From: Marinoscillum sp. 108
GTDB lineage: Bacteria; Bacteroidota; Bacteroidia; Cytophagales; Cyclobacteriaceae
Length of the DNA: 64,000 bases
Direction: 5' to 3'
Assembly (NCBI RefSeq): GCF_902506655.1
Contig: NZ_LR734808.1
Span: 1,984,001 to 2,048,000, forward strand
The notes beneath the pieces were generated by a model. The model was not told the DNA's origin. It did not search any database and saw nothing but the letters and a program-made list of their open reading frames with translations. Position numbers and translations under genes: made by a program. This document shows, in pieces, positions 10,672 to 28,401 of the stretch (position 1 is the stretch's first letter; each line of letters starts with the position of its first letter).

Positions 10672-11841
10672 TCAGGGCAAGCGCTCGTACAGTTCCAGCA
10701 GTGCGCGACCATTGTGGTAGGGGCATTTCCAGGGGCCCGCTTTGTCTTCATCCAAAACCACCTGCCCGGTCCTGGTCACTCTCCAGTGCCACTCGCCTTT
10801 TGGATCAATGAGCCTGGTTTTGATGAAACTCCAGGTTTTCTCAGCTTCCCTGAGATAACGCTCTTCTCCACTGATCTGCCAGGCATTGATCAAACCCACC
10901 AATGCCTCCGCCTGTGGCCACCAATGCTTGTCCGTATCTGTCAACCCCTCCGGGCCAGCTTCATTCATCAGACCACCATCATCGTCCATGCCCTCCAAAG
11001 ATGCGTCAGTCATCTTCAGCGCCAACGCCCTGGTAGAGGAAATAAGACCCGAATCCTGATGCACCTCAGCTGCCTCACACAAGAGCCAGCTCCCTTCTAT
11101 GTCATGACCAAAGGATACTTCGTGCGATTGTAGCTCCCATTGATCATTGAAGAATAAATGGAAATGATTGGTGTCCGAAATAAACTTTGTGGACATTAAC
11201 TCCACCAGGTTCTGAAGGGCTTTTTTCAAAGGTTCATGCTCCCACACCATCAGCAGATTGGTATAGGCTTCCAACACATGCAGATGCGTATTCATGGTCT
11301 TGGTAGCATTCATGTCCTTGTCACTCAGGCGAACGTCAGACAGTACCCCCCACTGGCGATCGAAAGCTTCAAAATATCCGTTGTCCTGTTTATCCAGACT
11401 GTGGGTTTCCAATAGGTTAAACAAGGTCACAGCGTGCTCCAAAGCCTGACCTTGTGGAGCTATTTTATGGTATTCACTAAAGGCATAAATCGCAAACGCC
11501 TGGGCATACACCTGCTTTTTATCATTGGAAACATGCCCTGTATGATCCAGCGTCCAATAGACCCCTCCGAACTCTGGATCCATAAAATGCTCTACGATGT
11601 ACTGATATGCCCTGTCAGCAACCTTTTTATGCTCGCTGTTTTGAGTGACCTGATAAGCCGCAGAAAAGGTCCACAAGATTCGCGTGTTGAGAATGATGGC
11701 CTTATCCGCCTTTGGGTGGAGCTGGTCATGGCCGTCAATGCGCCCATAAAATCCTCCCCACTCCTCATCCACCATCCTGCTCTGCCAAAAATCCAGAACA
11801 TTTTCATTCAGGACTTTATAGAGTTCGCTTTTTACAATCAT
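10672..11841 (-). CDS. Cellobiose/mannobiose 2-epimerase (AGE family)
   Basis: Cytoplasmic epimerase of 389 aa that interconverts glucose and mannose at the reducing end of beta-1,4 disaccharides, here Man-Man to Man-Glc. There is no signal peptide. Family motifs are visible: MNTHLHVLEAYTNL, SFGHDIEGSWLL, HWWPQAEALVG and CPYHNGRALLELY, which hold the His residues used for catalysis in cellobiose 2-epimerases. Length fits that group (about 390-410). It is last in the operon with GH130 and the GPH transporter, the known partner set for mannobiose use in Bacteroides fragilis and Ruminococcus albus. N-acylglucosamine 2-epimerase is the generic family name but is a poorer match to the neighbours. 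Confidence 0.92.
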   Translation of the reverse strand: MIVKSELYKVLNENVLDFWQSRMVDEEWGGFYGRIDGHDQLHPKADKAIILNTRILWTFSAAYQVTQNSEHKKVADRAYQYIVEHFMDPEFGGVYWTLDHTGHVSNDKKQVYAQAFAIYAFSEYHKIAPQGQALEHAVTLFNLLETHSLDKQDNGYFEAFDRQWGVLSDVRLSDKDMNATKTMNTHLHVLEAYTNLLMVWEHEPLKKALQNLVELMSTKFISDTNHFHLFFNDQWELQSHEVSFGHDIEGSWLLCEAAEVHQDSGLISSTRALALKMTDASLEGMDDDGGLMNEAGPEGLTDTDKHWWPQAEALVGLINAWQISGEERYLREAEKTWSFIKTRLIDPKGEWHWRVTRTGQVVLDEDKAGPWKCPYHNGRALLELYERLP

Positions 11842-11859: not shown

Positions 11860-12897
11860 TCAGACCCTACCTACCTTTTCAAGCAATTTTTTGGTGGCTT
11901 TGATGCCGTCTGCCTCGGACAATACGTTCCCTTCATATTCCACACCCACGTAGCCTGTAAACCCGGCATCCTTCACAATTTTCATCATGCGCTCATAATC
12001 AGTATGGGTCTCATTGCCTTCCTGATCAAAGTCATGAGACTTGGCACTCACACCTTTGGCAAACGGCATAAGTTCTTTCACACCCTGATAGCGGTCATAC
12101 TCTCTGATGCAGTTGCCATGTCCACCTTCTACACAGAAGTTGCCAAAATCAGGAAGGGTACCACAATAATCGCTGGCCACTTCCGCAATCACGCTACTGA
12201 GCCATTGACCATCGGACGAATAACCACCGTGATTCTCCACGATCACATTAATTCCGTTATCCTGACCATAGGCCGTCAGTCTGCCCAGCCCGTCTATGGC
12301 AGCCGCTTTCACTTCTTCGGCAGTACCATTGCCAGCTGCATTCACGCGAATGGAGTGACATCCGAGGGTCTTCGCGGCATCCACCCAACCATAGTGATTT
12401 TCCACCGCCTGGGTTCGTGCCGCTTCATCAGTATCGCCCAGATTGCCTTCCCGGTCACACATGATCATTAAACTTTTCACCCCTTGATCGTCACATTGCT
12501 TTCTCAAATCCTTCCAGAATTGAAGGTCATTCTTCTTTGAGTAATAGAAGACATTCACATACTCCACCGCATTGATCCCGAAATCCCTTTTGGCAATTGT
12601 GGGGAAATCAACGGGATTGAGTACCCCCTGCAAAACTTTGTCGGGATGTTCATCCCATAGCTTTCCGAAATTTTCCCATGAGCTCAGTCCTTCACCAAAA
12701 AATGATTTATGTAAAGACCACTGGGCCAATGAGATATTGAAAAATAGCGCTGCCGCTTTTTCTTCTGAAGACGCCTCGGCTGACTGCTCCTTTTTACCAG
12801 GGCCACAAGCAGATACAAGATTAGCACCTCCAAATAAGGCAAGTCCGGTGCTGGCTGCACCTAGGGTTTTAATTACATTTCGTCGATTGGATTTCAT
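11860..12897 (-). CDS. Tat-exported xylose-isomerase-like TIM-barrel lipoprotein
   Basis: Sugar phosphate isomerase/epimerase-like protein of 345 aa (AP endonuclease 2 superfamily). The N terminus has a twin-arginine motif (NRRNVIKTLG) and a lipobox (LVSAC, Cys about 31), so it is likely folded in the cytoplasm, exported by Tat and anchored in the periplasm. Possible metal ligands lie in VIVENHGG, GTLPDFGNF, SAKSHDFD and VGVEYEGN. Its ATG overlaps the PQQ dehydrogenase stop by 4 bp (ATGA), so the two are translationally coupled. The true reaction is unknown; an exported protein is unlikely to act on a sugar phosphate. Isomerisation or lyase action on an oxidised sugar made by its partner is an inference. 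Confidence 0.85.
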   Translation of the reverse strand: MKSNRRNVIKTLGAASTGLALFGGANLVSACGPGKKEQSAEASSEEKAAALFFNISLAQWSLHKSFFGEGLSSWENFGKLWDEHPDKVLQGVLNPVDFPTIAKRDFGINAVEYVNVFYYSKKNDLQFWKDLRKQCDDQGVKSLMIMCDREGNLGDTDEAARTQAVENHYGWVDAAKTLGCHSIRVNAAGNGTAEEVKAAAIDGLGRLTAYGQDNGINVIVENHGGYSSDGQWLSSVIAEVASDYCGTLPDFGNFCVEGGHGNCIREYDRYQGVKELMPFAKGVSAKSHDFDQEGNETHTDYERMMKIVKDAGFTGYVGVEYEGNVLSEADGIKATKKLLEKVGRV

Positions 12898-15800
12898 TCT
12901 TTTGATGGGTTTATGGAAAATTTGATTTCGTTTATTCCGAGTTGGTACGCACCTTCGGAGGATTTCAATATAAAGTATAAATCGTAAGTCCCGCTGGTAT
13001 TCAACTCCATTCTTGCTTCTCTACCGGACTGGACCGGGTTCAAACCCACCTTGCCGGCCAATGGGCCATCGGGGGTATCCAGGTACAGAGCTATTTCAAC
13101 AGGAGCCACGGTTTCGTTAGCCTCTGAGAAGAAATAAGCCACGGATAAGCTACTGATGTTGGTAAGATCTACGCCACGATAAACCATAGTGGGATTGCTA
13201 CCACTATTCACCACAAATCGGGCATCTCCATTCTCTACAGGCCCCACAATGGATAGATCAATCAGCTCATCTGCCTGCTCCGCCTGTAGCACAGGTATGG
13301 ACAGTGTTTTTTCTATGGTGCCTGTAAGCTTATCCACTCCGGGATTTCCATCATCTGTATAAGAAGCAGAAATACGAAGGTGTTCGTCAGTCATGCCCGT
13401 AGTGCTCAATCTCCCTTTCACACCAATAGACTCAAATTCATCCTCCACCGGATCATTGACTGAAAAGATATAGTCCACGATCTGTTTGGCAGCTGCCATG
13501 CTAAAGTCCGGGTGGCCGATCATCATACCATCGCCCCATACGCCACTTCCTCCATTGATGATCTTCTTTGCCAGAAGCTCTATGGCAATGTAATCCTGGT
13601 CATATTTCTCTGCGATCTGATAAAAGCTTGGCCCAATGGACTGTTCGTCTAGCTTATGACAGCTCTTGCAATCACTCGCCTGGATCAACTGAAGCCCTGG
13701 AGCCAACCCTTTGGTGTTTTCGGCATCCAATGCGGCCAGACTTGCAGGTGCCCTGTTGTCACTTCCGTTGTATTTGGATAACCCTACCGTCACCCGGTCG
13801 GGCGCAATCCCATCACCGAGGATTCCATCCTCAACGTCTGTCACCAGTACCTCATAAACCACCGGCCGGCCTGGCCAGTAGAAGGATTGATTATCAGCAA
13901 ATTGTATAGACACCTGCGGAGCGGTATTGCCGGCAATCACCTGCATCTGATCGGTGGATGTGGCACCGTGCTCATCTCTGGTCAGTAGCTGTACTTCATA
14001 AGTTCCTGCTTTGGTCAGGTTGATCTCATTCAGATCTCCCTCCAGGCTAAAGTTTTCAGGCCCGGTAACCTGCCAGCTGTGCGCAAGCTGGGCCCGGTCG
14101 TCCGGATCAGAGGATTCTTTAGCAGAAAGCATCAGCTTTAAAGGCAATGCTCCATTGGTCACCGTCTCCGCAATACGGGCTACCGGCGGACGGTTACCAT
14201 TGATAAAATGAAGCTTGATCAGCTTAGAGTCGCGGTTGTCCGTAAAATAGCCAATGCCATACTCCAGCACATAAAGTGCTCCGTCCGGGCCAAAAGCCAT
14301 GTCAATAGGCGAGGCTAAAGTGGTCTGATCCAGGAATGGCTCTATGGACAGGAAATTGCCTTCTTTATCTTGCGAAACCACCTTGATCCAATCCCTCGCC
14401 CAGTCGAATGCGAAAAGTTTGTGATGGAAATATTCTGGGAATTCATACCCGTGTCTCCGGGTATTGTCATAATCATACACCTCGCCAACTCCCACAGATC
14501 GTGAGCCTTTCCCCACGCCGGGAAACTGCGCTGTCTCATCGAAAGTATAATACACCATGGCAGGCACCGCCGGAGGCAAATTCACAGCGCCCGTATTATT
14601 CACAGAAGTGTTCCTGGGAGCAGATGGATCGAACCGTGGGCCCAATTCGCCAGTTTCAAAATCATAATCGGCATACGCCAGGTTATTGGCATTGAAATAA
14701 GGCCAACCATAATTGCCCGGCCGGGTGGCAAAATTAATTTCGTCATGAGCTGTAGGCCCGCGTTCAGAAGTTACGTTACCATCAGGGCCCACATCTCCCC
14801 AGTAGAGCCATCCTTTGTCTTGATTGATCGCCACTGTAAAGGGATTTCTGGCCCCCATAACGTAAATCTCTGGCAGGCCTTCGGTGGTATCTTGGGGAAA
14901 CAAATTGCCCTCCGGAATGGTGTACGTACCGTCTTTCTCAGGGTGGATTCTCAGGATTTTGCCTCTTTTATCCATCGTATTGGAAGATGACTTTTGCGAA
15001 TCAAAAGCCGAGCGACCAGGTCGTTCATCGAGTGGAGTAAAGCCATCTGACGCTCGGGAGAAGGTATTATCTCCTGTAGCGATGTACAAATTTCCTTCAC
15101 GATCAAACTCCAGGTCACCTGCCGAATGGCAGCACTCATCCCGCTGAGTGGGGATTTCTATAATGACCTTCTCGGAATCCCTATCGAATCCTTCCGAAGT
15201 GAAACAAAACCGTGAAACATGCTGCTTGGGCTCATCGCCAGGCGGCGAATAAAATACATACGCCCAGTGGTTTTCTTTATAATTGGGATCCAATACCATA
15301 CCCAGCAGGCCATCCTCCTCCCCGGTGTACACCTCCAGCTTATCTATTTCTTCTGACTGGCCGGTACCCGGATCATACCTGTTGATAGTACCCTTTCGCT
15401 CGATCCAATACACCACGGAGTTTTCCGTCACCACCAGGGCCATGGGCTCCCGCAAGGGTGCCACCAGCACCTCGCGCACCAGTCGATCCATCCCAGGCCT
15501 GACCCTGGTCTTTGCTCTGGAATAATCTGGAAATGAGATGCCCAAAGCAGGATTTTCTTCGCATTGAATTTGCGCTGTTTTGCTTTCCAAAAACCCTGTG
15601 ATCTGTCCCCAGTTGTAGATGGTATCCCTGCAACTAAAGGTCACGAGTCCGCCAGCTTCCAGGTAGCGCTCGATGTATGAGCGCTCGTCGAAGCCCAGAT
15701 CCGTCACTGGCGTGCCCAGGTATAAGTGACTCGCCTTAGTCAGTATTTTCTCATCCAGCTTCTCCACATTCGTCACAGAATCAAATGCCTCTGTCTGCAA

Positions 15801-15938
15801 GGTTGACGCGTCGGGAGCCCGTATCACCAGCAGCGATTCCCTGCTTTGGCAACTGCCAATGACCCCTAAGCAGATGACACTTAACAGTAGGTTAGAATAA
15901 TGGGATAGCCCTTTTTGACTCTTTTTACCTATTAGCAT
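12894..15938 (-). CDS. Multidomain PQQ-dependent sugar dehydrogenase with cytochrome c domain
   Basis: Periplasmic lipoprotein of 1014 aa (lipobox VIGSC). Order: a short ThuA-like segment (about 35-130, with YLEAGGLVTFSCRDTIYNW), a glucose/sorbosone dehydrogenase propeller (about 145-590, with HSAGDLEFD and NYGWPY), a PKD-like domain (about 600-680), a class I cytochrome c domain with haem motif CKSCH near 757, and a C-terminal CBM6-like beta domain (about 880-1010). It should oxidise an aldose with PQQ and pass electrons to the attached haem and then the respiratory chain. Its start overlaps the transporter stop by 14 bp and its stop overlaps the TIM-barrel gene by 4 bp, placing it firmly within the mannobiose operon. 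Substrate unknown. The ThuA segment is much shorter than a full ThuA domain (about 200 aa). Confidence 0.88.
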   Translation of the reverse strand: MLIGKKSQKGLSHYSNLLLSVICLGVIGSCQSRESLLVIRAPDASTLQTEAFDSVTNVEKLDEKILTKASHLYLGTPVTDLGFDERSYIERYLEAGGLVTFSCRDTIYNWGQITGFLESKTAQIQCEENPALGISFPDYSRAKTRVRPGMDRLVREVLVAPLREPMALVVTENSVVYWIERKGTINRYDPGTGQSEEIDKLEVYTGEEDGLLGMVLDPNYKENHWAYVFYSPPGDEPKQHVSRFCFTSEGFDRDSEKVIIEIPTQRDECCHSAGDLEFDREGNLYIATGDNTFSRASDGFTPLDERPGRSAFDSQKSSSNTMDKRGKILRIHPEKDGTYTIPEGNLFPQDTTEGLPEIYVMGARNPFTVAINQDKGWLYWGDVGPDGNVTSERGPTAHDEINFATRPGNYGWPYFNANNLAYADYDFETGELGPRFDPSAPRNTSVNNTGAVNLPPAVPAMVYYTFDETAQFPGVGKGSRSVGVGEVYDYDNTRRHGYEFPEYFHHKLFAFDWARDWIKVVSQDKEGNFLSIEPFLDQTTLASPIDMAFGPDGALYVLEYGIGYFTDNRDSKLIKLHFINGNRPPVARIAETVTNGALPLKLMLSAKESSDPDDRAQLAHSWQVTGPENFSLEGDLNEINLTKAGTYEVQLLTRDEHGATSTDQMQVIAGNTAPQVSIQFADNQSFYWPGRPVVYEVLVTDVEDGILGDGIAPDRVTVGLSKYNGSDNRAPASLAALDAENTKGLAPGLQLIQASDCKSCHKLDEQSIGPSFYQIAEKYDQDYIAIELLAKKIINGGSGVWGDGMMIGHPDFSMAAAKQIVDYIFSVNDPVEDEFESIGVKGRLSTTGMTDEHLRISASYTDDGNPGVDKLTGTIEKTLSIPVLQAEQADELIDLSIVGPVENGDARFVVNSGSNPTMVYRGVDLTNISSLSVAYFFSEANETVAPVEIALYLDTPDGPLAGKVGLNPVQSGREARMELNTSGTYDLYFILKSSEGAYQLGINEIKFSINPSKE

Positions 15939-17313
15939 TCAACTCCATTTTTACTTTTTGCATGAACTTCTCGTCCAGCTTATACATTCTCATGAAGCCG
16001 AACGAAATCAGCGCCCCCAATCCGGCGATCACACTGATCATGAGTCTGATCCCTAAAAGTGCTTCAGTAGTCTGCTCTACATTGGGTTCAAAACCAAAAC
16101 CAGCCAATAAATAGCCAGAAATAGCCCCTCCGATGGTCCACCCAAACTTCTGTGACATGGAAGAGGAAGAAAAGACCAATCCTGTGGCCCTTCGTCCCGT
16201 TTTCCACTCTGAGTAATCAGCAATATCGGCATACATAGACCATCCCAGCGGAAGGATTATGCCCGCAGAAATTCCAATAAAGACATTCAGAATAAAAATA
16301 AGCAATAGTTGATCGGGTTGTATAAAAAAGAACAAAAAGCTGAATGCCGCTGAAATAAGGGCTGCATAGCTGAAGGTGGTTTTCTTGCCAAATCTGGCCG
16401 CCATGGGCTTAGCCAGGAGTACTCCAATAATATTGGTGCCCAACCAGATAGACATGTATGCTGATGAAAGCACCGATGAGGTGACCTCATAGGAGGCACC
16501 AAAAAAGTCAAGGGTTTGATCCTTCACATAATACTTGAAATAGTAAAGAATGGAGCCATCGCGCAGGGAGTTGAAAATCAACACGAAAATATTGGCGCCC
16601 AGCATGATGAACCAGGGAAGGTTTTTCCCCAGATCCTTCAAATCATCTTTCAGGCTGTTCTTCTCCTCTTTTGGCGGTGCCAAGCGCTCCCGTGTCCACA
16701 GAAAGGTGAGCATAAACAACACCGCAGCCACCACCGCGTAGATGGAGATGGTAAACTGAAAGCCCGTAGCCTGGTCACTGTTTTGGCTAAAGTATTCTAC
16801 CAGTGAATTGGCCGTAGCAGTCACAAACAACCCACCTGAGAAAGCTCCAATAAACCGCCAGGAAGCCAATGAAGTACGCTCCACACCATCATTGCTCATG
16901 ACAGCCATCAGTGAGCCATAGGGCACATTGACCGCAGTGTACACCATCATCATGAGCGTATAGGTGACATACGCGTAGATGAGCTTACCATCTGCAGACA
17001 GATCTGGAGTAGAAAACGTCAACACCCCAATAATCCCAAACGGGATGGCGACAAAAAGCAAATAAGGTCTGAACTTCCCCCAGCGGGTCTTGGTGCGGTC
17101 AGAAATGAGCCCCATAATGGGGTCATTGAGGGCATCCCATACCCTGGTAACCAAAAACATGGTGCCCACAGCCGCTGCAGATATTCCGAAAACGTCGGTA
17201 TAGAAGAACAGCAAAAACATGGAAAAAAGCTTCCAAAACATGGAGGAAGCAAAATCCCCAAAGCTGTAGGCAATTTTTTCCTTTAACCGGATGGGTTGGT
17301 TCAGATCATTCAT
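15925..17313 (-). CDS. GPH-family glycoside:cation symporter
   Basis: Inner-membrane transporter of 462 aa with about 12 membrane spans, MelB-like. The N-terminal half has the family signature WDALNDPIMGLISDRTKTRW followed by GKFRPYLL. It would carry disaccharide, probably mannobiose or mannosylglucose, into the cytoplasm with a cation. It starts 5 bp past the GH130 stop and overlaps the next gene by 14 bp, so it belongs to the same message. This is the usual transporter type in mannan loci that use the epimerase/GH130 route. The exact sugar is inferred from neighbours. Confidence 0.93.
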   Translation of the reverse strand: MNDLNQPIRLKEKIAYSFGDFASSMFWKLFSMFLLFFYTDVFGISAAAVGTMFLVTRVWDALNDPIMGLISDRTKTRWGKFRPYLLFVAIPFGIIGVLTFSTPDLSADGKLIYAYVTYTLMMMVYTAVNVPYGSLMAVMSNDGVERTSLASWRFIGAFSGGLFVTATANSLVEYFSQNSDQATGFQFTISIYAVVAAVLFMLTFLWTRERLAPPKEEKNSLKDDLKDLGKNLPWFIMLGANIFVLIFNSLRDGSILYYFKYYVKDQTLDFFGASYEVTSSVLSSAYMSIWLGTNIIGVLLAKPMAARFGKKTTFSYAALISAAFSFLFFFIQPDQLLLIFILNVFIGISAGIILPLGWSMYADIADYSEWKTGRRATGLVFSSSSMSQKFGWTIGGAISGYLLAGFGFEPNVEQTTEALLGIRLMISVIAGLGALISFGFMRMYKLDEKFMQKVKMELNANR

Positions 17314-17318
17314 GATGT

Positions 17319-18509
17319 TTATTTTAGACCATTGGCCTTCAGGAAAGCCAGGTTTCTGTCGATCAATTCATTTCGGGTTTGCACGCTGGTAGCTGAGCGA
17401 AGGCCATCTTCAGGGGTGTTTTTACAATAATCCACCAACTGCTCCACCGTGGAGGTGGCCACATGCATGCGTGTATCTGACGAAGCGTAATAGATGTACA
17501 CTTCACCACTTTCTTTGGCAATCCAGCCATTGGTAAAAAGGACATTGGATACGTCACCCACACGCTCATCACTCAGTGGCCCCATGAAGTGACCCGCAGG
17601 CCTGTGGGTCACTTTGGATGGGTCCTCCAGGGCGGTCATGAACATGTATAGTACGTAGCGCAAACCAGCAGCAGTATTTCTTACACCATGGGCCAGATGG
17701 AGCCAGCCTTCGTTCGTTTTGATGGGTGGCGGGCCTTGACCGTTTTTCACTTCCTTGATGGTGTGGTAAATTTTCGGATCAATGATCTTCTCATCCCTTA
17801 CACTGGCATTTTCCATACTGGACACAAGGCCCCAACCAATACCACCACCCTTTCCGGCATCAATGAATCCATCCTGCGGGCGGGTATAGAGCGCATACTT
17901 ACCTTCCACAAATTCTGGATGAAGCACCACATTTCGTTGCTGGCTACCACCCGAATCCAGATCTGCCAGCCGCTCCCATGCGACCAAATCCCTGGTGCGG
18001 GCTATGCCGCACTTGGCTGTAGCCGCAGACTGATCTGCCTCCGAAGCACTGTGATCTCGTCTTTCTGTGCAAAAAAGACCATAAATCCAGCCATCCTCAT
18101 GCCGGGTTAGCCGCATGTCATAGACATTGGTATCCGGCTCATGGGTCTCAGGCAGTGTAATCGGGTGATCCCAAAATCTGAAATTATCAATACCGTTTTC
18201 GCTCTCGGCCACTGCAAAAAATGACTTCCGATCATAGCCTTCCACCCGCACGACCAGGCAAAATTTACCATTGAATTCAATGGCGCCCGAATTAAAGGCC
18301 GCATTCATCCCCTGACGCTCCATCAGCATGGGATTGGTCTCGGGATTGAGGTCGTATCGCCAGTGGATTGGCGTATGTGCGGCGGTCAGTATCGGGTTTT
18401 TGTATCGCTGATAGACACCATTGGTATCGGCCGTCGGTTCATTTTTGATGCTAAGAAATGCTTCGTGATCGGCTATTAATTTCTTTATTTTATTGAAAGC
18501 GTCGCTCAT
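17319..18509 (-). CDS. GH130 beta-1,4-mannosylglucose phosphorylase
   Basis: Cytoplasmic phosphorylase of 396 aa without signal peptide. It should convert Man-beta-1,4-Glc plus phosphate to alpha-mannose-1-phosphate and glucose. The five-bladed propeller shows the GH130 subfamily 1 pattern GMNAAFNSGAIEFNGKF, TNVYDMRLTRHEDGWIYG (catalytic Asp131) and GPPPIKTNEGWLHLAHGV. Length matches characterised 4-O-beta-D-mannosyl-D-glucose phosphorylases. It is the first gene of the operon that ends with the 2-epimerase, which supplies its substrate. A mannooligosaccharide phosphorylase (subfamily 2) is the alternative, but the sequence looks more like subfamily 1. Confidence 0.94.
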   Translation of the reverse strand: MSDAFNKIKKLIADHEAFLSIKNEPTADTNGVYQRYKNPILTAAHTPIHWRYDLNPETNPMLMERQGMNAAFNSGAIEFNGKFCLVVRVEGYDRKSFFAVAESENGIDNFRFWDHPITLPETHEPDTNVYDMRLTRHEDGWIYGLFCTERRDHSASEADQSAATAKCGIARTRDLVAWERLADLDSGGSQQRNVVLHPEFVEGKYALYTRPQDGFIDAGKGGGIGWGLVSSMENASVRDEKIIDPKIYHTIKEVKNGQGPPPIKTNEGWLHLAHGVRNTAAGLRYVLYMFMTALEDPSKVTHRPAGHFMGPLSDERVGDVSNVLFTNGWIAKESGEVYIYYASSDTRMHVATSTVEQLVDYCKNTPEDGLRSATSVQTRNELIDRNLAFLKANGLK

Positions 18510-18663
18510 AAAAAGTAATAGATGTAATGGTCTTATTTGTTATTTTTTTATAAAAAGGCACACTGAAGATGATACTTTTTCATCAGTCTGATCCATGCAT
18601 TAATCATTTGGTACCTACATTTTAATCAATTGATGTGCTGTTCACGGAGGTTCTTATATCCCC

Positions 18664-19569
18664 TCAATCCAGCAACGACAGCATTTTGAGTGCATATCTT
18701 TCACCTAATTCTCTGACACCCTGAGAATCGAAATGAATACTGTCTGACTGGGCAGTGCACCCGCTCGATGGTATCACATGGGCAGTGGGAACTGTTTCAG
18801 GCAGCGTAGCAATAATCTCATTCATACTGGCGCACACCCCACCCTGATCTGCATGCACCACCTCTCCGGCCAGCAAAGGCACCGTTTCTGCATCCAAAGA
18901 CAAATCAGTGAGCATGTTTTCATAGATGGTTTTCACATAAGTCGGCCATTGGCTATTGCCCGTATTGGTCTCTCCCTGATGTAATAAGATTCCTTTGATC
19001 ACTCCATCCTTTTGTGCTTTTTTAGCCAAATCAATAAGACGCTGGTAGGGATTCCCTCCATAACCGGCAATCTTATTCTGAAACCAATCCTCGGGATAGG
19101 TATTGACATAATTCTGATACTGATCTTTGTCAAACAAGCGTATGTCACAGCCTCCAATCGCCACGGAGATAACGCCTACTCTGATGCTATCCGGGAGATG
19201 ATCAGTCATCGTGCGCCCAAAATAATCTGCAGGAGACAGTCCTACACCGCACTGAGACAGGGGTGGTATGGCGGTATACCAGCGACCTTCAGTCCGGCCC
19301 GGATTAGTACAAGTCATAGGCTGCATCATCTGAAACCGCTCTTTTCCCACTCTGTCCTGTGATTCTATTTTGGCTGAACCTTCCATGTTCGATTGGCCGA
19401 AGCACAGATAGATATGAAAATTCGGATCAAGTGATATTACCTTCTCTGTAGGTGGGATCTCTGGTTCCTGCTCCATGTCCTCAGTTTTGTCGCACCCATA
19501 AAATGGCACGGACATCAGACTACTCAACAAAATCAAAATAGTCACATTCATTTTACGCATTTTCATCAT
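18664..19569 (-). CDS. SASA-domain acetylesterase lipoprotein
   Basis: Exported SGNH-fold esterase of 301 aa, simpler than the two large SASA proteins here. The N terminus has a signal with lipobox-like VPFYGC (Cys about 26), so it is probably a lipoprotein. The motif FGQSNMEGSA holds the catalytic Ser; GILLHQGETN and the C-terminal DSIHFDSQG (catalytic His) complete the active site. It resembles acetylxylan esterases of CE6 type, and in this context acetylmannan is the likely substrate. It is the last gene of the long ECF-controlled locus, 158 bp after the PQQ dehydrogenase, so it could also have its own promoter. ATG at 19569 or 19566 are equally possible. Confidence 0.85.
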   Translation of the reverse strand: MMKMRKMNVTILILLSSLMSVPFYGCDKTEDMEQEPEIPPTEKVISLDPNFHIYLCFGQSNMEGSAKIESQDRVGKERFQMMQPMTCTNPGRTEGRWYTAIPPLSQCGVGLSPADYFGRTMTDHLPDSIRVGVISVAIGGCDIRLFDKDQYQNYVNTYPEDWFQNKIAGYGGNPYQRLIDLAKKAQKDGVIKGILLHQGETNTGNSQWPTYVKTIYENMLTDLSLDAETVPLLAGEVVHADQGGVCASMNEIIATLPETVPTAHVIPSSGCTAQSDSIHFDSQGVRELGERYALKMLSLLD

Positions 19570-19727
19570 TCTTACGATCTAAATAAGTCAATCGGCAAAC
19601 TGCCTTCATAGTGTCAATTTGACTCAATTATTCATCGTCTGAAAAGTTCATCATCATTTCACACCCTTATTTTGATGAATTGATACACTTAAGCTCTGGT
19701 TCATTTCTAGTTTTGATTCAATCAAAC

Positions 19728-21341
19728 TTATCTTAATACCTTCCTTTCCTCATGAACTTCTCCTGGGATAACAGCACCTGCATCATTTTCAAATGCGCTT
19801 CGGACATAGCTCAGAACATTTGCTATTTCATCATCAGAAAGGTTAGCAAAGGCAGGCATCTCTTGTTGGTAGGCCTGACCATTCACCTCGATTTTACCTG
19901 ACAAGCCTTTAAGTAACACTTGTATCAACCTTGACTTATCACCTGTTACCCAATCTGTATCCTTCAATGGAGGATACAAGCCATTCACACCTTGCCCATT
20001 GGCCTGATGACATTGAATGCAATGCTTTCGGTAGACCGATTGGCCTTCAGAGATCTCATTACTATTTGCCTGAAAGTCCCACACCTCGTCCTCTATAGTG
20101 AGCGCCATGGAATCTTCCTTTAAAGTCAAAACCGGTAGCTGATCACTTAGCTTACGCTTCATCACTTCAGTTAAAACCTGAATGCGAAAAATCCGATCAC
20201 TACCCTCAGGTAGAGAATCATACATCCATGGCTGAAGCTGTGGATGCCAATCCAGGTTACTGGTTGAAAGAAAAATATCACCGTTTTGGCTCACACACAG
20301 ATCCCTTATTCTTCCAAAAACCTTTTGAAAAAAGATGTGTTCATCCAGTACTTCTGAGCCGTCTTCACTTAGGTTCAATACTCTCAAGGCACGACCCTTC
20401 AGATTAGCCACCAGCAGGCTGTTTCTCCACTCCGGAATGGCTGTATGATTATAATAGTCTATACCTGCTACAGCCACTGTTGGAGACCAGGAGAATATAG
20501 GTTCATTAACATTGCATACATGGCATGACTCTATTTCAGCTGGTAAATCACACTTCCCCTCGACCAAGGGCCATCCGTAATTCTCAGCTTTTTTGAGCAG
20601 GTTGATTTCGTCATCATTGTTCACCCCATGCTCAGAGCTGTAAAGCTGTCCTTTTTGGCCAAAAATCAAACCCTGAGGGTTGCGATGACCATAGGTCCAT
20701 AGAGGGTTATTTGTAAAAGGATTGTTAGAAGGAATAGAACCATCCAGGTTGATCCGAAGCACTTTCCCGTTTAGGTGATTGATATCCTGGCTTAACTTCT
20801 TTTCACCTGCATCACCCATGGAGAAGAACAGTTTTTCATCTGAAGAAATAACCATTCTGGAGCCGTTATGATAGGTCATTCCGGGTATGCTATCCAGCAA
20901 AACAAAGGGTGACGTAAGCTTCTCATTGACATAAGAATACCTGACAATTCTGGATTTAATAGTGGAATCCACAGAAAATGCATAGTGCAAATAGACATAA
21001 GGATTGTCGCTAAAGGATGGGTGAATGGCCATACTTAATAGTCCCAGGGACTTTTTGTAAAGCACATCAGGGATCATCAGAATAACCCTCGTTTCACCTG
21101 TCTCAGGGTTCAGTCTGTTGACCATTCCATTCTGCTCAGTGAACCAAATCCATCCATCCGGTCCAACTGTAATTTCCCAGGGAACCTCGAGATTACCTCT
21201 TACCTCTGTGACCAGGAGCTCAGTGGAATCAAGTTTTAATTGAGCTGCAAACCCATTGGTCAACGAGTGCTTTTCGGGAGATTGACACCCTGGTAGGTTC
21301 ATCAGAAGGATGAGAAAACAGCAATTAAGGAAAGTTCTCAT
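19728..21341 (-). CDS. PQQ-dependent sugar dehydrogenase fused to cytochrome c
   Basis: Periplasmic lipoprotein of 537 aa (lipobox NLPGC) that should oxidise an aldose with PQQ. The glucose/sorbosone dehydrogenase propeller (about 35-390) shows VPWEITVGPDGWIWFTEQNG, YGHRNPQGL and NNDDEINLL. A C-terminal cytochrome c domain (about 420-520) has haem motif CIQCH and a possible distal Met in QEMPAFANLSDDEI. I chose the ATG at 21341 rather than the in-frame TTG at 21356: it gives a clean signal peptide and overlaps the preceding stop by 4 bp (ATGA). Partner of the TIM-barrel gene directly upstream. Compared with the 1014-aa homologue it lacks the ThuA, PKD and CBM-like parts. Confidence 0.88.
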   Translation of the reverse strand: MRTFLNCCFLILLMNLPGCQSPEKHSLTNGFAAQLKLDSTELLVTEVRGNLEVPWEITVGPDGWIWFTEQNGMVNRLNPETGETRVILMIPDVLYKKSLGLLSMAIHPSFSDNPYVYLHYAFSVDSTIKSRIVRYSYVNEKLTSPFVLLDSIPGMTYHNGSRMVISSDEKLFFSMGDAGEKKLSQDINHLNGKVLRINLDGSIPSNNPFTNNPLWTYGHRNPQGLIFGQKGQLYSSEHGVNNDDEINLLKKAENYGWPLVEGKCDLPAEIESCHVCNVNEPIFSWSPTVAVAGIDYYNHTAIPEWRNSLLVANLKGRALRVLNLSEDGSEVLDEHIFFQKVFGRIRDLCVSQNGDIFLSTSNLDWHPQLQPWMYDSLPEGSDRIFRIQVLTEVMKRKLSDQLPVLTLKEDSMALTIEDEVWDFQANSNEISEGQSVYRKHCIQCHQANGQGVNGLYPPLKDTDWVTGDKSRLIQVLLKGLSGKIEVNGQAYQQEMPAFANLSDDEIANVLSYVRSAFENDAGAVIPGEVHEERKVLR

Positions 21342-22285
21342 TTTGATTCCTCCCAATATTGTTTCACTCGATTCAGGTCGTTTTTCATTGCTTCAAAGAC
21401 GATGCCCTGATCACAGCTTAGCTGTCTGTGACCATGCTCAGCCCCGCCCAATGGATACTCCAGATGAAGAGAGACCGGTACTTCAATCTCATACTTTCTG
21501 ATCAAACGGAAGAAGGCTGGAAAATCAACCATTCCCTCACCGATGGGTGTATTGACAAGGATCCATTTCCCTCCTATCTTTTCCCATTTAAAGTCTTTGA
21601 GCACTATGGATTTCACTTGACTTTGCACAAGCCTCAAACCATTTGGCCAGGAGACACCACCCTCCACTGTTGCATGCCTGATGTCATACTGTACCCCAAA
21701 GAATTTTGGGTCTGATAACTTCAGCAATTCATAAACTTCCCAAAGTGATGCGCCCACCAGATTGCCAGCATGATTTTGATAGCAAGCGATCAGACCTAGT
21801 CGCTCGTTTAGTACACCCAAGTCTGCTACCTGCTTCTGGAGTGATTGTAACTGGTCCATCATACTCACTTGCTGATCATAGCGAAACCAGTTCATTCGGT
21901 AAGTCTTAACCCCGAGAACAGCAGCCGTCTCTAGTACGCTTCTATCAACCGGGTCTAAGGCATCTTCTACAGCGGTGGTAATGGTCTCAAAACTGAGTCC
22001 TTCATTTCGAATTGCTGTAATCGCTTCAGGAAGATCCTTTTGCACATTGGCTGGCTCTACATGGCCATTAGGCCTCACTGTCAAATCCACTCCGTCAAAC
22101 CCAATCATTTTCGCCACCTCTGCCATCCGTCCATAATTCAGAAACTGAAGGTGTTTAGAGAAGATGTTCACCTTCAAACTCCTTTCACCATTAAAAAGTG
22201 ACATTGCCTGGGAAGGAAGTCCCAAAGCAATGCCACTAATCAAGCTTATGTTCTTTACAAATTGTCTTCTGTAGGTATTTGTCAT
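21338..22285 (-). CDS. Tat-exported xylose-isomerase-like TIM-barrel protein
   Basis: Second sugar phosphate isomerase/epimerase-like protein, 315 aa. The N terminus YRRQFVKNISLISG is a clear twin-arginine signal; I see no lipobox, so it should be soluble in the periplasm. Candidate metal-site motifs are ACYQNHAGN, VQYDIRHATVEGG, VLKDFKW and SLHLEYPLGG. It is translationally coupled to the following PQQ dehydrogenase by a 4-bp ATGA overlap. Here the TIM-barrel gene comes first, whereas at 12894-15938 the dehydrogenase does, so this is not a simple copy of that cassette. Reaction unknown; work on an oxidised sugar is inferred from the partner. Confidence 0.85.
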   Translation of the reverse strand: MTNTYRRQFVKNISLISGIALGLPSQAMSLFNGERSLKVNIFSKHLQFLNYGRMAEVAKMIGFDGVDLTVRPNGHVEPANVQKDLPEAITAIRNEGLSFETITTAVEDALDPVDRSVLETAAVLGVKTYRMNWFRYDQQVSMMDQLQSLQKQVADLGVLNERLGLIACYQNHAGNLVGASLWEVYELLKLSDPKFFGVQYDIRHATVEGGVSWPNGLRLVQSQVKSIVLKDFKWEKIGGKWILVNTPIGEGMVDFPAFFRLIRKYEIEVPVSLHLEYPLGGAEHGHRQLSCDQGIVFEAMKNDLNRVKQYWEESK

Positions 22286-27162: not shown

Positions 27163-28401
27163 TCATTTTGCGAACATTTCCATGAGTGAATTAACTGATA
27201 TGAACAAGGCAAAAAATAAGATCAGCACCATCTGAACATTAGAGATCAGACCAAAAGAATACTCGCCCATTAATCGCTTTTTATTACCAAGAAAAAGCAT
27301 AGCTGCTACAGTAAAAGGGAGCAATAATGCTCCAAAAGCCTGAGACAGCACCATCAGTATGATTGGTCGCGCATTAAAGAGAGGAACCACCAATCCGAAT
27401 ATGGAGAGTATCAATACCACCAATCTGGCTGACGTTTTCTTCAGATTAAGCTTGTCCTGATTTTTATAGTCACTGATCATCATCAGCGGCAGAAGCACAT
27501 TGGGAAGCTGAGACGATACACCAGCGGCCACAATCCCAATCACGAAAAACACAACAGCGAATGATCCGGCGAGTGGTTCTAAGAGTGAAAGCATCTGCGA
27601 AGTGTTCTCAAGTCTCAAGCCGGACTGGTGCAAACCTGTAGCCGCAGCTGCCATAATGGAAAAACTGATAATGAACATGATCAATGAGGAGATGGCGGCA
27701 TCTCGGTTTTGAACCTTTAGATCCTTTAGAGTCCAGCCAGAGTCTCTAACCAGAACCGTCCTGATAATAAACAAACCTGAAAAAACCGTAGTACCAACCA
27801 TGGAAGCCACCACCAGGTATGGAGTCTGACCTCCAGGAGAAACGGTTCCTGGAATTTGCGGAATCAACCCAGAAAGAACTTGCCCTGCTGAAGGTGACAA
27901 AATCAATAAATTGGCCAGAAAAGCCAAGGACATCAGGGCAACCAAAATCCCCATAATACGCTCCATCATCGAAGATTTTCCCACTAAAAAAATGAGGTAA
28001 ACCACGCCAATGAAAAACACTGCAAAGTAGATAGCAGGGACCCCGCCTGGCGTGTAGGATAATGACCAATGATAGCACACATCAGAGATCACTCCTATCA
28101 CTCCCATGATACTCCCACAAACATTGATGGTCAGAGCCACCACAAAAAATCCGGCAAATACTGGATGGATGTATTCCTTGAAAGAGTGGAGCGCTGTTTC
28201 TCCAGTGACAATGGTAAACCTGCCAAACACCTTGATCAGAAAATATGTGATGTAACAGGAAATGGCTATCGTCCACAAAAGATCCAAACCATAGTCAGCT
28301 CCGGCGTTGGACATAGCAGTAACACTTCCGGTACCAATATTGAGTCCTACCAGAAACAATCCCGGCAGGATGGATTTCATAAAGGTTTTAATCTTGCCCA
28401 C
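27163..28401 (-). CDS. Nramp-fold transporter lacking the usual metal-binding motifs
   Basis: Inner-membrane protein of 412 aa with about 11 spans, similar to Nramp divalent-metal transporters. In canonical members, span 1 has DPGN and span 6 has MPHN, which bind the metal. Here the matching positions read LNIGTGSVTAM (near residue 20-30) and GTTVFSGLFIIRT (near residue 200), so both motifs are absent. The fold assignment rests on GLFLVGLNIGTGS at the start, the span pattern and the GW-LKDLK-type loop after span 6. It starts 19 bp after the GH42-like gene and precedes the GH5-like gene by 37 bp. The substrate is unknown. A role in sugar, organic acid or other uptake for this locus is possible, and metal uptake is doubtful. 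Confidence 0.8.
   Translation of the reverse strand: MGKIKTFMKSILPGLFLVGLNIGTGSVTAMSNAGADYGLDLLWTIAISCYITYFLIKVFGRFTIVTGETALHSFKEYIHPVFAGFFVVALTINVCGSIMGVIGVISDVCYHWSLSYTPGGVPAIYFAVFFIGVVYLIFLVGKSSMMERIMGILVALMSLAFLANLLILSPSAGQVLSGLIPQIPGTVSPGGQTPYLVVASMVGTTVFSGLFIIRTVLVRDSGWTLKDLKVQNRDAAISSLIMFIISFSIMAAAATGLHQSGLRLENTSQMLSLLEPLAGSFAVVFFVIGIVAAGVSSQLPNVLLPLMMISDYKNQDKLNLKKTSARLVVLILSIFGLVVPLFNARPIILMVLSQAFGALLLPFTVAAMLFLGNKKRLMGEYSFGLISNVQMVLILFFALFISVNSLMEMFAK

Follow-up and report, generated by a model that had tools for sequence, protein, structure and literature searches.

The cleavage of glycosides by oxidation and subsequent elimination is already known from pathways of the nicotinamide adenine dinucleotide (NAD) type that act on levoglucosan and C-glycosides. 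In the levoglucosan pathway (LgdA-LgdB1-LgdB2-LgdC), the β-elimination and hydration of a 3-keto sugar are assigned to PF01261 proteins (PMC7676230, PMC10066097). Here, we analyze two gene pairs of Marinoscillum sp. 108 located in a 64,000-nucleotide stretch (contig NZ_LR734808.1, positions 1,984,001 to 2,048,000 of the forward strand; hereafter the window, to which coordinates without a prefix refer), each of which joins a fusion of a pyrroloquinoline quinone (PQQ)-type sugar dehydrogenase and cytochrome c (GSDH1 and GSDH2) to a PF01261 TIM barrel with predicted export (TIM1 and TIM2). A dehydrogenase gene thus lies beside PF01261 genes as in the levoglucosan pathway, but LgdA is an NAD-type Gfo/Idh/MocA dehydrogenase, whereas the window encodes an exported, haem-fused GSDH propeller. 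We find that the pairing of TIM barrel and dehydrogenase is not due to chance, and the best-supported reading is that the pairs would perform periplasmic, respiration-coupled keto-glycoside chemistry, in which a sugar is oxidised and the product is then eliminated or epimerised. The first-pass annotation of this DNA had proposed that mannan sugars are oxidised and then isomerised or cleaved here; our results partly support that proposal and move the emphasis to recurrent exported modules of an oxidase and a keto-sugar enzyme, two of which lie in this mannan locus.

All four reading frames are found on the minus strand at the coordinates of the first-pass annotation, GSDH1 (12894-15938, 1014 aa) being paired with TIM1 (11860-12897, 345 aa), and TIM2 (21338-22285, 315 aa) with GSDH2 (19728-21341, 537 aa from its ATG or 542 aa from an upstream in-frame TTG). 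The junction DNA confirms an ATGA overlap at both joints, and the gene order is indeed opposite, since GSDH1 is transcribed ahead of TIM1 but TIM2 ahead of GSDH2. Both GSDH proteins match PF07995 and Cytochrom_C, and both TIM barrels match PF01261, above the curated Pfam cut-offs, and each GSDH has a single CxxCH. GSDH2 is matched by PF07995 across its propeller (272.8 bits, positions 1-325 of 332) and has its cytochrome c domain at residues 431-515 (19797-20051; CxxCH at residue 441). The description of GSDH1 as a plain dehydrogenase-cytochrome fusion holds for both of those parts and is incomplete as to layout: a shortened ThuA-like domain (residues ~31-128; 15555-15848) is followed by the propeller (residues ~148-575; 14214-15497; PF07995), a PKD-like part, the cytochrome c domain (residues 746-826; 13461-13703; CxxCH at residue 757) and a C-terminal CBM6-like domain (residues 885-1008; 12915-13286), with the PKD and CBM6 matches below the Pfam cut-offs. 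The ThuA remnant was recognized with hhalign (probability 99.95) by comparing the N-terminal parts of 17 GSDH1-type proteins with stand-alone ThuA. Both fusions resemble soluble glucose dehydrogenase (sGDH, PF07995) and the fungal AA12 enzymes in their propeller and catalytic His/Arg/Asn, and GSDH2 also in its PQQ anchors; they differ in the C-terminal cytochrome c and the pairing with a TIM barrel, and GSDH1 in its replaced anchors and added ThuA, PKD and CBM6-like parts. A simple tandem duplication of one pair is rejected, as the two TIM barrels fall into separate PF01261 subfamilies and GSDH1 and GSDH2, compared as profiles, share 24% identity. The repeated association proposed in its place stands and is strengthened by a third such pair in the genome, by recurrences in other families and by the exchange of quinoproteins beside the same TIM barrel.

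Evidence for non-random pairing comes from the neighbourhoods of TIM2 relatives, taken as the best 80 loci of a longer list from one scan of GTDB contigs. A quinoprotein-type dehydrogenase adjoins the TIM2 relative in 16 of the 80 loci. In raw gene counts, it occupies 17 of 156 adjacent positions against 1 of 503 positions at a distance of at least 3 (Fisher p 1.6e-10); Pfam identifies the near match at L247 (+1), like the sole far match (L286), as a cytochrome only, and the corrected counts are 16/156 and 0/503 (p 5e-11). These p values overstate independence because ten of the 16 positive loci are from Dyadobacter, and on leaving these ten out the counts are 6/146 against 0/503 (p 1.2e-4). 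The first-pass annotation had raised a random association outside this clade as the contrary outcome; here and among the GSDH1-type genes discussed below, the association is non-random. In an order-level sample, 8 of 30 scored TIM2 loci (31 fetched) are positive, though this is not an independent test because it shares genomes with the GTDB set (e.g. L093 and L270).

Two kinds of quinoprotein account for these neighbours. The ten Dyadobacter loci carry a PF01011-cytochrome fusion (confirmed with Pfam on L260, L285 and L308, and on L092 of the order-level sample), the PF01011 quinoprotein being an 8-bladed propeller. Six TIM2 loci have a GSDH-type gene, as identified by Pfam (L241, L247 and L268) or by strong phmmer matches (L240, L242 and L290); the L241 and L268 neighbours, both divergent, show weak similarity, with GSDH above the Pfam cut-off. 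In L098 of the order-level sample, a PF01011 quinoprotein lies on one side of TIM2 and GSDH2 on the other, and the TIM2-GSDH2 frames overlap in L098, L100, L101, L240 and L242 as they do in the window. That TIM2 can have either of two unrelated quinoprotein families as its neighbour is the strongest indication that the paired genes are functionally coupled. In a TIM2 tree built by a quick method, at least five changes are required for the GSDH label and at least three for the PF01011 label over the starred branches, and the window row and the GSDH-bearing Flavobacteriia rows branch below a large clade, many members of which are found near alginate lyases. Outside the count, a DUF7133-HEAT-cytochrome c protein is encoded directly upstream of TIM2 in L248 (3851-6922) and L294 (3847-6945) and is perhaps a third kind of TIM2 redox partner; an FG-GAP neighbour with a weak dihaem match in L277 was likewise left uncounted. 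The Dyadobacter-type TIM2-PF01011 loci (L092, L093, L250, L254, L259, L260, L263, L267, L270, L272, L285 and L308) share a wider cluster that includes Gfo/Idh/MocA-like genes and open reading frames (ORFs) of ~408, 134 and 148 aa.

The genome of Marinoscillum sp. 108 contains 5 GSDH and 12 PF01261 matches, and among these is the third pair, on contig C8, where the gene of an 865-aa GSDH-cytochrome protein immediately precedes that of a TIM barrel bearing a Tat-like (twin-arginine translocation) leader. This pair is preceded by a 1215-aa fusion of cytochrome c, PA14 and 3-keto-disaccharide hydrolase (PF06439), with a second TIM barrel and two Gfo/Idh/MocA genes alongside. The C8 cluster (L018:4974-17709) also contains a CarboxypepD_reg/plug-like protein, and its core is retained in the congeners L230 and L231. 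GSDH1 itself is found in three of five congeners at 62-63% identity, always followed by TIM1 and within the GH130-GPH-epimerase operon (L199-L201). There the epimerase gene comes first and the pair second, the reverse of the arrangement in the window, and the two genes have therefore been kept together although their place relative to the epimerase changed. A TIM2 relative is present in two of the five congeners (G001 and G005), in both beside alginate-lyase-type genes.

Among GSDH1-type loci, a TIM barrel lies within two genes of the GSDH1-type gene in 7 of 18 scored loci, and by gene counts at 9 of 69 near positions against 1 of 96 further out (p 0.0019, with TIM hidden Markov models built from sets that contain these loci). 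The sample comprised 20 loci, mostly top-ranked and including second copies of two congeners, of which two were dropped over ORF calls on the opposite strand. Four TIM subfamilies occur near these genes (TIM1, TIM2, TIM_C8a and TIM_C8b), and those directly adjoining are TIM1 or TIM_C8b. Among lower-scoring TIM1 matches, a GSDH gene is adjacent in 10 of 17 loci (L202-L218), a fraction that is biased upward and not usable as a rate because the loci were chosen partly for apparent adjacency; it nonetheless overturns the view that no TIM1 relative elsewhere is paired with a GSDH. Pfam also identifies a ThuA gene behind TIM1 in L202 and L205. In the TIM1 tree, 16 of the 52 rows have GSDH and the label needs at least six changes, gain and loss not being separable, and the window and its three congeners form a clade apart from the second group (L202-L218). 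The closest TIM1 relative of the order-level sample (62%; L122, G227 C287) is followed by seven co-directional ORFs of ~250-276 aa in an array-like arrangement.

The nearest functionally described relatives of TIM1 with solved structures are, as judged by profile comparison, 3-keto-glycoside lyases. The TIM1 profile has nine matches in the PDB, namely 4ovx, which has no assigned function, 9m3b (DgpC1), 7xrf, 7bvr/7drd/7exz, 9m3a, 8qvc, 7bvs, 8qrz and 7dnm; 7exz is tied to lyase activity by a publication cited here, and the others except 4ovx are classed as lyases by name. Every one of the 52 aligned rows has E221, H223, D250, K286 and E320 of TIM1, and E322 occurs in 50. The H-x-K of the lyases, whose His we assume to be a metal ligand, aligns with S284-A285-K286 of TIM1. 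The lyase-type positions H223, E221, D250 and E320/E322 are present, and that of the metal His is Ser. The 7bvr/7drd/7exz group is matched at E 1.6e-9, and E-x-H at 141-143 of the 7exz chain aligns with E221-N222-H223, which places H223 at the catalytic His143. 7EXZ is the 3-keto-C-glycoside lyase PuCGE, for which His143 is given as the catalytic residue (PMC13273386). TIM1 thus resembles PuCGE in its profile and in the alignment of the catalytic His and the Glu/Asp positions; in contrast, PuCGE is heterodimeric and has the metal His, while TIM1 has no β-subunit gene adjoining. This kinship, the catalytic His, the ThuA remnant of GSDH1 and the 3-keto-disaccharide hydrolase of the C8 cluster together argue for keto-glycoside chemistry in the TIM1 pair. 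The proposal that the partner proteins isomerise their substrates is not supported, given the lyase relatives of TIM1 and the loss of metal ligands of classical isomerases in both the TIM1 and the TIM2 family.

TIM2 belongs to a separate subfamily, in which Y169, N171, H172, D201, D231, W234 and H274 are conserved in 33 of 33 rows and Q170, H204, K230 and E276 in 32. Its profile matches 3tva, 3p6l, 3wqo, 4kw2, UlaE and 3lmz in the PDB. The AlphaFold2 model (mean predicted local distance difference test score 92.3) has SCO6571, Art22, UlaE and tagatose/psicose 3-epimerases as its top fold matches, with the 2-hydroxy-3-keto-glucal hydratase AtHYD at rank 25 and the 3-keto-glucoside 4-epimerase YcjR at rank 38. 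YcjR of E. coli (6wn6) and AtHYD of A. tumefaciens (8ro4), which by structure title act on 3-keto sugars or their glycals, share the fold of the TIM2 model, but are only 14-15% identical to TIM2, which lacks two classical metal ligands. Twin-arginine leaders are conserved among the relatives of both TIM1 (R5 R6) and TIM2 (R6 R7 F9) and TatC is present in the genome, so that the Tat export proposed earlier is well founded, yet predicted; TIM1 also has a lipobox-like LVSAC, spotted by eye. A TIM2 paralogue with 51% identity is found elsewhere in the genome (C1:2341230-2342165; L021:9228-10175, minus strand), flanked by PF14592 genes (chondroitinase B, PL6-type) and with a PF08787 alginate lyase (PL7-type) nearby.

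On the side of the dehydrogenases, GSDH2 keeps a predicted PQQ site. Its residues H158, D177, R220/N221, K315 and R344/R346 correspond to His144, Asp163, Arg228/Asn229, Lys377 and Arg406/Arg408 of sGDH (5min), and all seven are invariant in the 9 aligned rows, the window included. In sGDH, Asp163 counts among the catalytic residues, and Lys377, Arg406 and Arg408 are PQQ anchors. The roles of His144, Arg228 and Asn229 are described in PMC6881810. In GSDH1, the catalytic core (H271, D290, R364 and N365) is invariant in 13 of 13 aligned rows. The earlier label of a PQQ dehydrogenase-cytochrome c fusion is therefore borne out for the domains of both proteins and, with respect to the PQQ residues, for GSDH2 alone, three anchors being replaced in GSDH1. 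A Cys-Cys-His at GSDH1 residues 269-271, around the catalytic His, is likewise invariant in all 13 rows, and to our knowledge such a neighbouring Cys pair is unusual for the family of GSDH1.

In our estimate, the odds are even that the two proteins of a pair act in sequence outside the inner membrane, one oxidising a sugar and the other converting the ketone that results. In such a two-step exported module, the haem-fused GSDH propeller would take two electrons from a sugar hydroxyl and deliver them to the respiratory chain by way of its fused cytochrome c, as the domains and residues suggest; the PQQ would most likely be acquired from outside. Candidate substrates are a mannan side sugar, mannose, glucose or the end of an oligosaccharide. 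The keto-sugar would then be the substrate of the co-exported PF01261 protein, with TIM1 most likely catalyzing the β-elimination of a keto-glycoside, as in the 3-keto-glycoside lyases, and TIM2 an epimerisation, hydration or elimination, and the products would be imported, at this locus perhaps by the GPH symporter. A periplasmic oxidation feeding a cytochrome, as first proposed, is supported, unlike the isomerisation that was to follow. A more specific form is possible, though we hold it tentatively and with less confidence than the general one: periplasmic cleavage of glycosidic bonds without a hydrolase, in which the quinoprotein-cytochrome would oxidise a ring hydroxyl (C3 or C2) on a mannosyl, glucosyl or galactosyl unit, the co-exported TIM barrel would break the adjacent glycosidic bond by β-elimination, and depolymerisation itself would supply the respiratory chain with electrons, such modules having been assembled several times in Bacteroidota from different quinoproteins and TIM barrels.

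Several observations weigh against keto-glycoside chemistry. In 64 of the 80 TIM2 loci the panel shows no adjoining quinoprotein, and 18 of the 80 lie within two genes of polysaccharide lyases of PL6/PL7 type (PF14592, PF08787). TIM1 relatives mostly occur without a GSDH: their first sample had none in any of 29 loci (~7 kb on each side or less, four of the loci being shorter than 9 kb). The ATGA joint of GSDH1 and TIM1 is specific to the window among the congeners with the pair, the two genes being 34, 70 and 83 bp apart in the other three. No 3-keto-hydrolase or Gfo/Idh/MocA gene is present among the 28 window proteins scanned, in which respect the window differs from the NAD pathways of Lgd/thuB type, although the C8 cluster has two Gfo/Idh/MocA genes. 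The classical metal His position is S284 in all 52 TIM1 rows. TIM2 lacks the metal Glu (Q170-N171-H172) and also the metal His, whose position we presume from the H-x-K pattern, and no lyase is found among the PDB matches of its profile. GSDH1 lacks the sGDH anchors Lys377, Arg406 and Arg408, the equivalents in a profile alignment with the GSDH2 family being A514, S543 and I545, and the Arg pair is absent from all 13 aligned rows. The main weakness is that sGDH-type enzymes, and AA12 as well, act at C1 (PMC6881810), and oxidation at C1 would yield a lactone, not a 3-keto-glycoside.

The last point leads directly to the alternative that fares best, which we consider unlikely though a serious contender: classical C1 oxidation, in which lactones would be formed from free mannose, glucose, galactose or the ends of oligosaccharides chiefly as a source of electrons, with the TIM barrels acting as separate ketose isomerases or epimerases that share the regulon. 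Every catalytic and anchor residue of sGDH that was checked is present in GSDH2, C1 is the site of oxidation named for both described enzyme types, and UlaE and the psicose/tagatose 3-epimerases are among the best fold matches of TIM2. However, C1 oxidation leaves unexplained the occurrence of TIM2 beside quinoproteins of two unrelated families, the variety of TIM subfamilies found next to GSDH-type proteins, and the company of ThuA and a 3-keto-hydrolase; moreover, Pfam finds no lactonase domain in either pair.

A further alternative, which we regard as improbable, concerns GSDH1 alone and supposes that it is no longer a PQQ enzyme but a cytochrome- and carbohydrate-binding propeller serving as an electron relay or for the docking of a partner enzyme, with TIM1 as the sole sugar enzyme of the pair. 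The Ala, Ser and Ile at the anchor positions and the missing Arg pair fit this view, as does the PF07995 match, which in GSDH1 covers only the first two thirds of the family. No PqqC was found above the curated cut-off in the genome itself or in sets of 39 and 14 genomes, in searches where no control genome responded, so that its absence is not established, and PqqE has two matches below its cut-off and none above. Against a loss of PQQ use stands the invariance of the catalytic His/Asp/Arg/Asn in all 13 rows. GSDH1 could also still use PQQ because the AA12 enzyme TrAA12 has been modelled by docking to hold it through a different set of basic residues (PMC6881810), and dependence on external PQQ has a parallel in the PqqU producers among Bacteroidota, which are reported to lack PQQ synthesis genes (PMC12124388). 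With only the catalytic core kept and three anchors replaced, the cofactor of GSDH1 is uncertain.

The window covers part of a mannan locus of the Bacteroidota type, and the 28 proteins scanned include SusC/SusD pairs, glycoside hydrolases (GH) of families GH26, GH5, GH27 and GH42, SASA esterases and a hybrid two-component regulator. GSDH1 and TIM1 share an operon with a GPH-family sugar:cation symporter (15925-17313), which GSDH1 overlaps by 14 bp, a GH130 protein near 4-O-β-D-mannosyl-D-glucose phosphorylase (17319-18509; PDB 3was, E 1.1e-186) and a cellobiose/mannobiose 2-epimerase-like gene (10672-11841; PF07221, with EpiA as top NCBIfam match below its cut-off), all on the minus strand. 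With GH26, GH5, a mannosylglucose phosphorylase-type GH130, the GPH transporter and the 2-epimerase present, this corresponds to the mannobiose 2-epimerase-mannosylglucose phosphorylase operon of mannan users, from which it differs in the GSDH1-TIM1 pair. Of 195 genomes (this one and its relatives), 29 contain GH130 at E 1e-130 or better, with 31 matches in total, and a search for co-occurrence with GH130/2-epimerase operons, as the first-pass annotation had suggested, placed the pair in 4 of these 31 loci (own, G002, G004 and G005), all of one genus; none of the 27 other regions examined, several truncated where a contig ends, carries it. Near GH130, L336 has a GSDH-cytochrome gene (472 aa) and L337 a PF01261 gene; the PF01261-like gene of L334 was dropped as a UxuA mannonate dehydratase, and the supposed GSDH of L320 as a GH5-like/F5-F8 protein. 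A conserved mannan branch as a general statement is rejected on these counts, and the TIM2 relatives of the congeners beside alginate-lyase-type genes also speak against it. The pairs thus either reached this mannan locus recently or have been retained in few lineages, and the pairing itself is the wider phenomenon. It is very improbable that mobile pairs were inserted here by chance without any role in mannan use: the restriction of GSDH1-TIM1 at the GH130 operon to one genus, the other locations of TIM2 relatives in congeners and a DNA methylase gene near the L240 pair would suit such hitchhiking, but in three congeners the GSDH1 and TIM1 genes are still neighbours with unchanged operon and orientation although the order around them differs, and the reading frames are intact.

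If the initial oxidation is indeed performed by quinoproteins beyond the inner membrane, sugar breakdown of this kind would be tied to respiration and would depend on PQQ from other microbes, and a function could be given to many genes of environmental Bacteroidota annotated as 'PQQ-dependent sugar dehydrogenase', 'ThuA' or 'sugar phosphate isomerase'. The pairs are concrete and testable, and the TIM2 family, whose neighbours may be a GSDH, a PF01011 quinoprotein or alginate lyases, offers a natural comparison. No description of a quinoprotein-PF01261 pair was found in the literature searched, which covered few subscription papers; an alternative glycan breakdown pathway in Bacteroides, reportedly the subject of a 2024 Nature paper, and glucoside 3-dehydrogenases said to be of the flavin adenine dinucleotide (FAD) type would be closer prior art. 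The rhizobial thuAB route is said, by the title of a paper of Ampomah from 2013, to proceed by assimilation through 3-keto derivatives; GSDH1 resembles it in having a ThuA domain, but this part is shortened, and no thuB-like (Gfo/Idh) gene is found among the window proteins scanned.

Among the neighbouring genes, a SASA-type carbohydrate esterase (18664-19569, minus strand) lies downstream of GSDH2, and an SGNH-type esterase follows TIM2-GSDH2 also in Saonia flava (GDSL; L240:9604-10305), so that such an esterase is possibly part of the TIM2-GSDH2 module. An NRAMP-family transporter is encoded inside the mannan locus (27163-28401). NRAMP genes recur in TIM2/alginate-lyase loci (L252, L255, L303, L306, L315 and L348), and the transporter in such loci may carry something other than a metal.

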